This document shows positions 17,814 through 63,676 of a stretch of 64,000 bases of DNA, piece after piece. The stretch's first letter is position 1, and each line of letters opens with the position of its first letter. The position numbers were made by a program, and so were the translations under genes. Origin of the DNA: Amycolatopsis bartoniae (GTDB taxonomy: Bacteria > Actinomycetota > Actinomycetes > Mycobacteriales > Pseudonocardiaceae); NCBI RefSeq assembly GCF_014191255.1, contig NZ_JACHWH010000001.1, positions 1,426,001 to 1,490,000 on the forward strand, in the 5' to 3' direction. The notes below the pieces were generated by a model. The model worked only from the letters and a program-made list of their open reading frames with translations. It was not told the origin of the DNA and searched no databases.

Positions 17814-17889
17814 GTGGGTGTAGCTCAGATGGTAGAGCACCTGGTTGTGGTCCAGGATGTCGCGGGTTCGAGTCCCGTCACTCACCCCA
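17814..17889 (+). tRNA. tRNA-His (GTG)
   Basis: A complete cloverleaf: acceptor GTGGGTG pairs with CACTCAC (one G-U), the D arm is AGCTCAGATGGTAGAGC, the anticodon GTG lies in the loop of stem CCTGG/CCAGG, and the T arm has GGTTCGAGTCC. C73 is the discriminator and CCA is encoded. The base before position 1 is G (17813), the extra G-1 typical of tRNA-His. Confidence 0.97.
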
Positions 17890-18122: not shown

Positions 18123-18195
<73 letters not shown>

Positions 18196-59916: not shown

Positions 59917-60051
59917 GCAGTTCCTTCCCGTCGGCGAAAGTTGGCCGCGATTCCGGATCCTCTGGCCGCGAATCGCTACCTTCCTGTGTCCTCGCTCACA
60001 TAGAGTGGCGGCCATTCGCCGCCATCCGTGTCGCACACCAGGAGGCCAACG

Positions 60052-61884
60052 GTGACCAGCCAGTCGTCGGTCGCGGACCGGGCCAAGGGCCAGACCATCG
60101 CCAAGCTACTGCGCCGCAACGCCGGCGAGTACGGGGACCTGCCCGCGCTGACCTCGCTCGACGCCGAAGGCGAGCCGACGCTGACCTGGGCGCAGGTGCG
60201 GCACGAGGTGGCCGTGCTCTCCCGCGGCCTCGCCGACCTGGGGCTCGGCCGGGGCGACCGCATGTTGATCATGGCGCCCAGCTGCCCCGAACACCTGCTC
60301 GTGGACCTCGCCGCCGTGCACGCCGGCGCGCTCCCGTGCACCGCGTACGCCACGCTCAGCCCGGACCAGATCCGGTACGTGGCCCGGCACAGTGCGGCGC
60401 CGGTCGTGGTGCTGCACGGCGTGAACGAGCTGAAGCGGTGGGAACAGGTGCTCGACGACCTGCCCGCGCTGCGGCACGTCGTGTTGGTCGACGCCGAAGC
60501 CGCCCCGCCCGGCGACGACCGGTTCGTCAGCCTCGCGGAGGTGCGGCGCCGGGGCGAGGAGCTGCATGAGGCCGATCCGGACGCGTTCGAGCGGGCGACC
60601 GACGCCATCCAGCCGTCCGATCCGCTGGCGATGATCTACACGTCGGGCACGACGGGGCAGCCGAAGGGCGTGGTGCTCACGCACGCGAACGCCGTGCACG
60701 AGTCGTACGCGATGTGCGAGGTGCACGGCATGACCGGGCCCGTCACGAACATCGCGTACCTGCCGCTGGCGCACATCGCCGAGCGGGAGGTGTCGATCTA
60801 CCTGCCGATCACGCTCGCCGGGCACGTCCACACCCTCGCCGACCCGAGCGGCATCATCGGCGCGCTCGGCCGCGTGCACCCGAAGGGCTTCTTCGCCGTG
60901 CCGCGGGTGTGGGAAAAGATGGTCGCGGGCCTGAAGAACATGCTGGCGAGCGTCCCCGAGGAGCGGCGCACGGCGTTGTTGCAGGCGAACGAGCTGTTGC
61001 AGCGGGGCTACAAGCTGCGGGACGCCGGCCGGGAGGTGCCGGCCGAGCTGGCGGAGCAGATCGCCGAGACCGACCGGACCGTGCTCGCCCCGATCCGCCA
61101 GATGCTGGGCCTCGACCAGCTGATCTTCTGCGGCAGCGGGGCGGCGGCGCTGCCGGTGGAGGTGCTGTACTTCATCGCCGGGCTGGGGGTGGAGATCCAC
61201 GAGGTGTGGGGCCTCTCGGAGACGACGGGTGCGGTCACGTCGAACTCCGCCGCGGCCTTCCGTGCGGGCACCGTCGGCCGGGCGGTGGGGGACACCGAGA
61301 TCAAGGTCGCCGAGGACGGCGAGCTGCTGGTCCGCGGTTCGCTGGTGTTCGCCGGCTACCTGCGGGAGGACGGCAGCGTGCAGCCCGCCGTCGACGACGA
61401 AGGCTGGTACGCGACGGGCGACATCGGCACGATCGACGAGGACGGCTTCGTCCGGATCACCGACCGCAAGAAGGAACTGATCATCACCTCGGGCGGCAAG
61501 AACATCGCGCCCACCCGCATCGAGGGCCTACTCAAGGAGCACCCGCTGGTCGGCCAGGCGGTGGCGATCGGCAACGACCGCCCCTACGTCACCGCGTTGA
61601 TCGTCCTGGACGACGAAATCCTGCCCGGCTGGGCGGCGGCGCAGGGCATCGAGTTCACGGACGTCGCCACGATGGCGGGCCACCCGGCCGTCCGCGAGGA
61701 GATCGAGCGCGCGGTGAAGTCGGCGAACAGCAGGTTGGCAAGGGTGGAGCAGATCAAGCGGTACCAGGTGATCAGCACCCCATGGACCCCGGAGTCGGGT
61801 GAGCTGACCCCCACGCTGAAGCTCAAGCGCCGGATCATCAACGACAAGTACGACAAGGAGATTGAAGCCTTGTACGCGGGCTGA
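60052..61884 (+). CDS. Long-chain acyl-CoA synthetase (AMP-dependent, FadD15-like)
   Basis: This 610-residue ANL enzyme activates fatty acids through an acyl-AMP to acyl-CoA. It shows the P-loop-like YTSGTTGQPKGVVLTH, YLPLAHIAEREVS, WGLSETTGAVTSN, and the hinge/Lys region ITDRKKELIITSGGKNIAPT. It closely follows the layout of the mycobacterial FadD15 type, and I infer a long-chain substrate. AGGAGG lies six bases before the GTG at 60052. The 3' end is followed by 470 bp of repeats and a structured element. Confidence 0.9.
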   Translation: MTSQSSVADRAKGQTIAKLLRRNAGEYGDLPALTSLDAEGEPTLTWAQVRHEVAVLSRGLADLGLGRGDRMLIMAPSCPEHLLVDLAAVHAGALPCTAYATLSPDQIRYVARHSAAPVVVLHGVNELKRWEQVLDDLPALRHVVLVDAEAAPPGDDRFVSLAEVRRRGEELHEADPDAFERATDAIQPSDPLAMIYTSGTTGQPKGVVLTHANAVHESYAMCEVHGMTGPVTNIAYLPLAHIAEREVSIYLPITLAGHVHTLADPSGIIGALGRVHPKGFFAVPRVWEKMVAGLKNMLASVPEERRTALLQANELLQRGYKLRDAGREVPAELAEQIAETDRTVLAPIRQMLGLDQLIFCGSGAAALPVEVLYFIAGLGVEIHEVWGLSETTGAVTSNSAAAFRAGTVGRAVGDTEIKVAEDGELLVRGSLVFAGYLREDGSVQPAVDDEGWYATGDIGTIDEDGFVRITDRKKELIITSGGKNIAPTRIEGLLKEHPLVGQAVAIGNDRPYVTALIVLDDEILPGWAAAQGIEFTDVATMAGHPAVREEIERAVKSANSRLARVEQIKRYQVISTPWTPESGELTPTLKLKRRIINDKYDKEIEALYAG

Positions 61885-62018: not shown

Positions 62019-62074
62019 CACCCGGCACCCGGCACCCGGCACCCGGCACCCGGCACCCGGCACCCGGCACCCGG
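62019..62074. repeat. Perfect 8 x 7-bp tandem repeat (CACCCGG)
   Basis: Eight identical CACCCGG units follow one another with no change, preceded by imperfect units CACCCCG and phrases of GACAACCCGGCAC (61940-62015). It is in the gap between the acyl-CoA synthetase stop and the structured element. Exact tandem copies of this length are prone to slippage, so copy number may vary between strains. Nothing suggests it is coding. Confidence 0.9.
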
Positions 62075-62185
62075 ACAACCCAACCATCGGACGCCCAACA
62101 ACCCCCAAGCCCCCAACACCCCGCAACGACACAAGGAAAAAGGCCCTCCGCCCGGTCCTCCCCCGTCCCCGATACAAAGCCGTCA

Positions 62186-62276
62186 TTAACGGTCGGCGCG
62201 CCGTGTCAAGGGTGAGGCGAAGCCTCATCGCGAAGCGACGCCGAAGGCGCCCTTGACGCGGCGTGACGACCGTTAA
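62186..62276. repeat. 91-nt four-way-junction element with three C(GAA)G hairpins
   Basis: A 10-bp perfect outer stem (TTAACGGTCG 62186-62195 with 62267-62276) is followed by a 3x3 internal loop (GCG/TGA) and a 14-bp stem (62199-62212 with 62250-62263; one G-U as RNA). Inside it three hairpins follow without spacers: TGAGGC-GAA-GCCTCA (62213-62227), TCGC-GAA-GCGA (62228-62238) and CGCC-GAA-GGCG (62239-62249). Every loop is the triplet GAA closed by C-G, a very stable mini-hairpin in DNA. It fits between the 7-bp tandem repeat and the SDR gene stop. It could be a mobile repeat (REP/MITE-like), a protein or recombination site, or a structured RNA. A terminator role for the SDR gene is possible but does not explain the form. 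Confidence 0.9.
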
Positions 62277-62355
62277 ACAATTAGCGATCGGGGCGGAAGA
62301 GGGCCGATGGTGACCACCACCTCCCGCGCGCAGCGCGGCCCCCCACACCGCCCCC

Positions 62356-63270
62356 TCAAGCACTCCGCAACGGCGACGACGTCGACTCCGTCCATTTCCG
62401 CAGCCGGGGCGGCACCCGCTTCTCCAGCCCGTACGGCTCCAGGTGCGCGCTGAACACCTCGTCGAACGCGCGCCGCACCGTCTCCGTGTCCCAGGTCTGC
62501 CGCTCCAGGATCGGCGCCTTCAGATACGGCTGGCCGATGATGTGCAGCTGCGGGCCGTTGCACCGCACCAGCTGTCCCGTGATGCCTTCCGCGTCGTCGG
62601 AGAGCAGGAACAGCACGAGGGGCGCGATGCGGGACGGCGTGCGGTCCGGCGGGCAGTTCCGCAGGGAGCGCTCCGACTTCCAGACCATCCGCGTGTGGGC
62701 GAGCGGGCAGACGGCGTTGACGCGGATGCCGACCTCCTCCAGGTCCAGTGCCCACGAATACGTCAGCGACGCGACCGCACCCTTGCTCGCCGAGTACACG
62801 CCGAGTTTCCGCTGCCCCAACGAGGCACCCGACGAAATGTTGACAATCGCACCGCCGGTGCCCTGGGCGACCATCTCCTTGATCGCCGCGATGCCGGTGT
62901 ACATCACCCCCAGGACGTTGACCTCCACCAGCTCGCGGATCTGCTCGGGCTCCTCCTGCCACGGCAGCGCCTCGTAGTTCAACGCCGCGTTGTTGACGAG
63001 ACCGTCGATGGAGCCGAACTCGTCGACGCACAACCGGACCAGTTCCGCGGCCTGGGCTGGATCGGTCACGGTGTGCGAGCTCGCCACGGCGCGGCCGCCG
63101 TGCTCCCGGATGTTGGCGGCGGTTCGTTCCGCCGGTTCGGCGTCGACGTCGTTGACGACCACCTTCGCCCCCGCCTGGGCGAGGTGCACGGCGAACGCCT
63201 CACCCAGCCCGCGGCCGGCTCCTGTCACCACCACGGCGCGGTCCCGCAGGCCCGCCAACTGCATGTTCAT
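62356..63270 (-). CDS. Short-chain dehydrogenase/reductase
   Basis: This 304-residue SDR has TGAGRGLGEAFAVHLAQAG, NDVDAEP, VNNAALNYEALP, NISSGASLG and the active site YSASK (Tyr-x3-Lys). It resembles the hydroxysteroid or 3-oxoacyl type with a longer C-terminal arm. The start is at the ATG of MNMQL (63270), with GGAG eight bases before it; a second ATG lies 6 bp later. The structured element lies 79 bp beyond its stop. Confidence 0.87.
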   Translation of the reverse strand: MNMQLAGLRDRAVVVTGAGRGLGEAFAVHLAQAGAKVVVNDVDAEPAERTAANIREHGGRAVASSHTVTDPAQAAELVRLCVDEFGSIDGLVNNAALNYEALPWQEEPEQIRELVEVNVLGVMYTGIAAIKEMVAQGTGGAIVNISSGASLGQRKLGVYSASKGAVASLTYSWALDLEEVGIRVNAVCPLAHTRMVWKSERSLRNCPPDRTPSRIAPLVLFLLSDDAEGITGQLVRCNGPQLHIIGQPYLKAPILERQTWDTETVRRAFDEVFSAHLEPYGLEKRVPPRLRKWTESTSSPLRSA

Positions 63271-63676
63271 GTTCCTCGCTCCCCACTGGCCAGCCCCGAC
63301 GCAGCCCGTTCCGCGGGCTCCCACTGACCCTGGTACCAGTGTTCGCCGCCACCACTCGGACGACACCTGGACGACGACGAGCGGTCTGCCCACTGCGCCG
63401 AACGAGTGAGCGATGACCAGCGGCGCATACTCTCCGACCGGTCAGCGCGCCGGATCGGGTGCTCCGTTCGTCGTAATCCGAAGGTCGGTGATTACGCCCG
63501 GTTGGCGCCAATGGCGGATACCGTCTTGCTGTGACTGTTCGCCTCCGGGCTGTAAGCGGCATACTGGCCGTGGTCTTTCCTGTCCCTTGGGTGAGTGCCC
63601 GGTTCCCGCACCCCACGGCGGACGACAAACTGTGTGAACGTTGTAGCGTTCACCCGATCAGGGGGGAGCTGGCAGG
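63271..63676. other. 406-bp intergenic region with palindromes
   Basis: No convincing gene is seen; the longest open frames have poor codon use. CTGGTACCAG (63329-63338), itself within CACTG-N10-CAGTG, may be an operator of the leftward SDR gene. TTGGCGCCAA (63502-63511) is another perfect 10-bp palindrome. GTGAACG-N6-CGTTCAC lies upstream of the MFS gene. Confidence 0.6.
63634..63653. promoter_or_regulatory. Operator-like inverted repeat before the MFS gene
   Basis: GTGAACG (63634-63640) faces CGTTCAC (63647-63653) perfectly across 6 bases. It is 23 bp upstream of the ATG at 63677. Palindromes of this size near efflux genes are often TetR- or ArsR-type repressor sites; the regulator is not visible. 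Confidence 0.55.

Follow-up and report, generated by a model that had tools for sequence, protein, structure and literature searches.

A GNA-capped three-hairpin cloverleaf repeat of Amycolatopsis bartoniae, probably a folded-DNA site for mobility or replication

What is the role of a structure that packs three hairpins side by side between two genes of Amycolatopsis bartoniae, and does it act as RNA or as DNA? The structure is a 91-nt cloverleaf at positions 62186-62276 of a 64,000-nt stretch of contig NZ_JACHWH010000001.1 (positions 1,426,001 to 1,490,000; hereafter, the window), in which all three hairpins are capped by C(GAA)G. The element is an extragenic palindromic repeat in kind, yet not a repetitive extragenic palindromic sequence (REP) in the strict sense, and no named family was found for it. 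Its probable role is that of a folded-DNA site connected with mobility or replication. For the more specific reading, in which it is a non-autonomous mobile element of REP-like type, works as DNA and has its fold recognised by a replication or recombination enzyme, we consider the chances about even.

Fold, covariation and loop signature

The features of the window copy are as follows (all on the + strand).

~62117..62338, edges approximate: whole repeat copy (module 1), from 30 own-genome copies aligned together with their 130-nt flanks
62186..62276: cloverleaf core, from folding; matched by covariance model R1 with 108.1 bits at G000:C1:1488180-1488292 (G000 is the window's genome)
62186..62195: outer stem 5' arm, TTAACGGTCG, from folding
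62197..62212: inner stem 5' arm, with the conserved GTCAAGGG at its end, from folding and alignment
62213..62227: hairpin 1, 6 bp, GAA loop, variable in length and sequence among copies
62228..62238: hairpin 2, 4 bp, GAA loop
62239..62249: hairpin 3, 4 bp, GAA loop; five other copies are split here by an IS110-family element
62250..62265: inner stem 3' arm, with the conserved CCCTTGAC at its start, from folding and alignment
62267..62276: outer stem 3' arm, CGACCGTTAA, from folding
62325..62337: extra C(GCA)G hairpin, CGCGC-GCA-GCGCG, close to the right edge, by direct reading

The 10-bp outer stem is formed by TTAACGGTCG and CGACCGTTAA and is separated by one G/A mismatch from an inner stem of 16 pairs, 14 Watson-Crick and 2 wobble. 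The three hairpins follow with stems of 6, 4 and 4 bp and with zero unpaired bases between them. The initial annotation had described the outer stem and the gapless C(GAA)G hairpins correctly and had counted 14 pairs in the inner stem. Its limits fit the core and are too narrow for the repeat, since the repeat unit is ~220 nt long and the 91 nt form its core. Many of the 30 aligned own-genome copies have the left edge CACCCCGCAACGA and the right edge CGCGCGCAGCGCGG, and the flanks are shared and partly complementary. GCA or GAA hairpins similar to the one near the right edge are present, by eye, in other copies.

The core is very stable in both chemistries, with z = -6.40 folded as RNA and z = -7.56 folded as DNA, and none of 200 shuffles was equally stable in either case. 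The larger stretch 62140-62315, in which the outer flanks pair too, reaches z = -8.68 with DNA folding. Rfam 15 at gathering score gives no match at the element, and a scan of six related loci finds nothing at E<0.1. The sole Rfam matches of the window are two tRNA genes, at 17814-17886 and 18123-18195.

That the structure rather than the sequence is under selection had been suggested from the window copy and is supported by the alignment of 59 copies from many genera. In this alignment, 88.4% of the cells pair, and both sides of a pair have changed in 345 cells against a shuffled mean of 118.8, a value that 0 of 500 shuffles reached. The covariation score is 0.379 against 0.124 for the shuffled alignments, and slid structures give at most 117 both-side-changed cells. 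Hairpins 2 and 3 are nearly invariant here, which is partly a matter of selection, most of their letters being fixed by the genome search pattern.

The loops follow a rule of their own. Among the own-genome copies that could be parsed (26 copies out of 35 loci), GAA or GCA makes up 76 of 78 loops, and the other two are TT. The 23 parsed loci of the single-copy and plasmid set give GNA in 39 and GNNA in 5 of 46 loops (hairpin 2: 18 GNA, 3 GNNA, 2 other; hairpin 3: 21 GNA, 2 GNNA). GNA triloops are reportedly a class of extraordinarily stable DNA minihairpins. The hairpins of streptomycete telomeres are described as having GAA, GGA and GTA as their commonest loops despite differing stems (PMC8743542). 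Because the GNA rule is shared with stable single-stranded DNA (ssDNA) minihairpins and with these telomeres, the loop signature is taken as the strongest argument for DNA as the folded strand, and the role as folded ssDNA that had been envisaged for the window copy fits the loops.

Copies in the genome, convergent genes and IS110 insertions

The occurrence of the element is far beyond chance. BLAST with the core returns 43 rows at 40 places of the A. bartoniae genome, and the best pair of copies is 98% identical. R1, which was built from 59 aligned relatives of the element, finds at least 36 distinct places, a lower bound because scoring covered 150 of 13905 first-look candidates. The other 24 of its 60 rows read these places in antisense. 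The places are mostly intergenic, in line with the expectation of many intergenic copies. Five further copies are each interrupted by an IS110-family element. In about half of the first 30 copies, a second structured module, ~245 nt long, comes after module 1; it is near full length at 22 own-genome places (for example, L016:1674-1920) and has long nested stems whose arms apparently covary, as judged by eye. The window copy consists of module 1 alone, with no copy of module 2 seen in the window. Two congeneric genomes have both modules together in one fetched copy each, and a third fetched copy has module 1 only.

The window copy, at 1488186 of the 2510122 nt of contig C1, is at least ~1 Mb away from both contig ends and lies between two convergent genes.

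60028..61884, +: AMP-dependent ligase-like gene, 618 aa, convergent upstream neighbour; function by inspection; its orthologue adjoins the short-chain dehydrogenase/reductase (SDR) gene in relatives
62356..63393, -: SDR-like gene, convergent downstream neighbour, start uncertain; function by inspection; 18 nt separate its stop from the repeat edge

The element is lineage-specific at this gene pair. None of 18 other genomes of the genus carries it there (no BLAST match in the gap and no R1 match in the locus); 17 of the 18 show both neighbour genes, in one a contig ends, and another genome has extra intergenic sequence. Upstream, ~45 nt from the left edge of the element, there are seven perfect 7-bp tandem repeats (GGCACCC) at 62024-62072. 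Besides IS110, the recurrent neighbours of the own-genome copies form one four-locus cluster and several two-locus clusters.

Convergent placement is common in this genome. According to a simple gene caller based on GC content at third codon positions (GC3), 28 of 43 own loci are convergent, 7 minus-minus, 5 plus-plus and 1 divergent, with 2 unresolved. Leaving out three loci with module 2 only and two loci where the insertion sequence (IS) gene itself is the neighbour, the convergent share is 23/36 resolved loci against 8/40 adjacent gene pairs in the window (p=0.00015). This enrichment, together with the stability of the core as RNA, would suit a structure that serves convergent genes, either a bidirectional terminator or an RNA hairpin that stabilises 3' ends, spread by duplication. 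We regard this explanation as quite unlikely. A terminator role, which the initial annotation had kept in view for the SDR gene, agrees with the convergent enrichment, but no T run adjoins the stems of the window copy, and relatives with the same convergent pair do not have the element. Outside the genome, the bias is smaller (19/49 convergent), and a terminator leaves the plasmid and ICE-like copies (ICE, integrative and conjugative element) and the GNA/GNNA loop rule unexplained.

One class of insertions deserves separate attention. The genome has six near-identical copies of one IS110-family element.

IS110-family copies: G000:C8:188822, C2:782249, C1:2160723, C1:1247186, C2:279504, C1:2417386

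Five of the six sit in hairpin 3 of cloverleafs at an identical position, one differing by one base. The sixth has the same adjoining letters as hairpin 3 and, as read and folded, flanks without a cloverleaf; for this reason, the IS110 element probably reads the hairpin-3 sequence. A bridge RNA is said to be the topic of a study on IS110 (PMC11208160). Three long copies with an internal gene (L089-L091) had been considered as autonomous versions of the repeat and were rejected, as the gene is the IS110-family transposase inserted at hairpin 3. In other bacteria, IS110-family elements are described as inserting in REPs (PMC1525189), and targeting of the invariant hairpin of a repeat is a parallel to that case. 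The shared insertion point and this precedent favour a different view of the cloverleaf, in which it is chiefly a landing site for other mobile elements and owes its own spread to gene conversion or ordinary duplication. This view is very unlikely, as the sixth copy suggests an IS that reads sequence, and a landing site accounts for the IS and not for the spread or the covariation of the repeat.

Distribution, ICE-type loci and DUF222-HNH genes

Similar copies with covariation occur in many actinomycete genera. A pattern scan of named genomes gave at least 107 stretches, of which 80 are listed. The listed matches include Actinomadura, Amycolatopsis, Actinokineospora, Lentzea, Kocuria, Streptomyces, Microbispora, Sphaerisporangium, Kineosporia, Kribbella, Isoptericola, Cellulomonas and others, as well as four metagenome bins, one labelled Acidobacteria. 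In the family of the window, R1 matches at E<=1e-8 are found in 69 of 150 genomes, many with one to three rows, and BLAST with the core matched 24 of 61 relatives including the own genome. Within the genus, the distribution is patchy: counting antisense rows, R1 gives 44 in G007, 24 in G008, 18 in G006, 6 in G015 and 2 in G002, and there are no R1 matches in the congeneric genomes G001, G003, G005 and G014. Ten plasmid records contain the element at one place each (Streptomyces 7, Rhodococcus 2, Kocuria 1). R1 recovers 9/9 fetched loci of the plasmid collection, seven from the ten records and two others (Nocardia, Mycobacterium) that were found with a query from an Actinomadura element. Phage records give no match at E<=1e-5, and IMG/VR contigs give no exact match to a 29-base pattern. 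Within openly licensed PMC papers, no description was found of such a cloverleaf or of DUF222 genes flanked by one.

The low-copy loci point to a context of mobile elements. Within 4 kb of the cloverleaf, 20 fetched low-copy loci have a recurrent small protein at seven and a recurrent integrase or a fragment of it at three. Over all compared sets, the small protein is found at 12 loci, or 10 after dropping two same-record duplicates. At nine unique loci, its gene lies within 4 kb of the cloverleaf, invariably on the 3' side and in plus orientation relative to it. A single copy per plasmid record and a fixed side and strand relative to the small gene are a pattern that the dispersed chromosomal copies lack. 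The small protein has no match in Pfam (three members searched) or NCBIfam (two members). The loci of the small-protein and integrase groups also encode FtsK/SpoIIIE, phage integrase, GntR-UTRA and NUDIX domains, and FtsK/SpoIIIE, integrase, GntR and NUDIX are kinds of genes named for actinomycete ICEs (PMC3218068). On these gene contents, the cloverleaf would be a cis-acting site within ICE-type elements, perhaps a single-strand origin. For comparison, sso1 of ICEBs1 is described as having three predicted stem-loops and working in one orientation, with structure mattering besides or instead of sequence (PMC4595007). At five low-copy loci (L332, L333, L334, L336 and L344), one neighbour gene family recurs next to the cloverleaf, an arrangement like that of an integration hot spot; three of these have an integrase and three a dCTP-deaminase-like gene, named by inspection.

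A second context is formed by DUF222-HNH genes. In Actinomadura, DUF222 genes are flanked by inverted cloverleafs, and the inverted repeats span 182-224 columns at 96.9-100% identity at seven loci; at four loci of G024, they span 175-187 columns at 73-86% identity. A DUF222 open reading frame (ORF) is present in 22 of the 80 listed pattern loci (Actinomadura 19, Labedaea 2, Herbihabitans 1). The cloverleaf adjoins DUF222 at 5/5 fetched loci of G024 (partly chosen as pairs), 9/10 of G026, 0/4 of G027 and 0/1 of G020. By genome, it borders DUF222-HNH genes in Actinomadura and in two genomes of the window's family. In G026, at least 11 of the 14 listed DUF222 genes have a cloverleaf 133-148 nt upstream of the domain, in divergent orientation; there, DUF222 groups that are 22-23% identical have a cloverleaf region that is 90-96% identical over 136-199 nt. 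In a tree of 40 DUF222 proteins, the label "linked" needs three changes, two of them forced by well-supported branches, with long-branch warnings.

The AlphaFold model of a DUF222 protein (md0749e1d5fe8) has a pLDDT of 88.5 and a pTM of 0.66. With middling Z scores, residues 19-152 of the model resemble the DNA-binding domains of ParB, Noc and KorB, and the C-terminus resembles the HNH domains of IscB and McrA. Foldseek with this model gives no match at E<=0.001, and a sequence search of the PDB with one DUF222 protein gives none; a family missing from the fold matches carries no weight as a negative.

Two side observations concern these units. In the larger group of multi-copy DUF222 units of G026 (L299-L308 without L307), similarity ends within 48 nt of each ORF end, and the stop codon of these ORFs may therefore be supplied by the flank. 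Three loci of G027 (L309, L310 and L311) have a degenerate inverted cloverleaf ~250 nt after the cloverleaf, as in a compact inverted pair without a gene, and in L312 this second, inverted cloverleaf is absent.

A rival scheme holds that DUF222-HNH (13E12-type) proteins mobilise the cloverleaf, in the way proposed for REP-associated tyrosine transposases (RAYTs) and REPs. The ParB-like domain would bind the palindrome and the HNH domain would cut, and gene-less copies, such as those of A. bartoniae, would be non-autonomous relics. This scheme is unlikely. The A. bartoniae genome has no DUF222 match, and five genomes have at least seven R1 rows yet no DUF222. DUF222-HNH genes are frequent in the family (96 of 150 genomes), and the 30 top-scoring DUF222 loci have a cloverleaf in two clear and two weak cases. 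Counted by genome, 50 have both, 19 the cloverleaf only, 46 DUF222 only and 35 neither, a weak association (p=0.06) that weakens DUF222 as a general mobiliser.

Proposed mechanism and comparison with known systems

The reading of the cloverleaf as a folded-DNA site can be put as a sequence of steps. When the locus becomes single-stranded, in replication, rolling-circle copying or conjugation, one strand would fold into the cloverleaf with GNA loops on its arms. A replication or recombination enzyme would recognise the fold. The single copies in plasmids and near ICE-type genes would act as sites of single-strand initiation or processing. The element would descend from such a folded-ssDNA cis site carried by mobile elements of actinomycetes, and in the lineage of A. 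bartoniae it has multiplied between genes. The ssDNA form would be the active one, the site in ICEs would be of an origin type, and the copies would move by a DNA route.

Several observations weigh against this proposal, besides the convergent placement. The 23 single-copy and plasmid loci with parsed loops come from 28 found by model or BLAST, five of which could not be parsed. In loops 2 and 3, the search pattern preset G and A, and R1 was trained largely on those GNA-rich hits, so some bias is to be expected in the loop counts of this set. At the other 10 of the 20 low-copy loci, neither the small-protein nor the integrase cluster was found, and nine proteins from seven of them, plus one from L343, have domains of metabolic, regulatory or undefined kinds. 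The DNA that actinomycete ICEs transfer is described as double-stranded (PMC3218068), in which case the ssDNA step would lie in replication. No target-site duplication is evident by eye outside 11 paired elements of other genomes, and the own-genome edges are approximate; none of the compared genomes offered a clean empty site at close identity. The strand along contig C1 shows no bias (14/23 plus, p=0.40), in a crude count made without locating the replication origin.

A broader and somewhat unlikely version of the proposal is that a GNA-capped folded-ssDNA cloverleaf is common to ICEs, plasmids, DUF222-HNH elements and chromosomal repeats as a structure-recognised initiation or recombination site, with a ParB-like HNH nuclease as one partner. 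If true, structured RNAs would have a counterpart in DNA in this shared module. The compensatory change across genera and the GNA rule make the cloverleaf a candidate case of selection on ssDNA structure outside telomeres. It is also a concrete candidate substrate for the DUF222-HNH proteins of 13E12 repeats, and it may mark sites of replication in actinomycete ICEs.

The closest known systems include REPs in their composite forms (bacterial interspersed mosaic elements, BIMEs; REPINs) with their RAYTs. Like them, the cloverleaf is a high-copy extragenic palindrome, in some genomes it is inverted around a gene as described for RAYTs (PMC2817692), and both kinds of repeat are targeted by IS110 elements (PMC1525189). 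The REP-associated Y1 transposase that the initial annotation had proposed to look for is absent from the genome: a search with PF01797 gave 0 matches, and the positive control matched in 5 of 14 genomes. The GT(A/G)G head described for REPs (PMC2817692) is also missing, GTCA at 62182-62185 preceding the stem in the window copy, the one inspected. As these two defining features were tested and not found, the element is not filed as a REP. It further differs in its three-hairpin cloverleaf of ~90-220 nt and in the gene that stands beside it elsewhere, DUF222-HNH.

The 13E12 repeat, or REP13E12, which is called repetitive and without defined function (PMC13061034), shares multi-copy DUF222-HNH genes with the loci described here. 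However, A. bartoniae has the cloverleaf without the gene, and most of the 30 top-scoring DUF222 loci have the gene without the cloverleaf. Miniature inverted-repeat transposable elements (MITEs) are likewise short, non-coding, dispersed and mostly intergenic, but no target-site duplication was seen by eye at the 11 paired elements elsewhere, and no parent transposon with matching ends was found in the A. bartoniae genome. The palindromes of streptomycete telomeres share GAA-, GGA- and GTA-loop hairpins with variable stems (PMC8743542); the cloverleaf, on the other hand, is interstitial and dispersed rather than at a replicon end, and is one conserved structure rather than a series of palindromes. 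Finally, the single-strand origins of rolling-circle plasmids and ICEs, such as sso1 of ICEBs1, resemble it by description in their three stem-loops (PMC4595007), whereas the cloverleaf is also a multi-copy chromosomal repeat.
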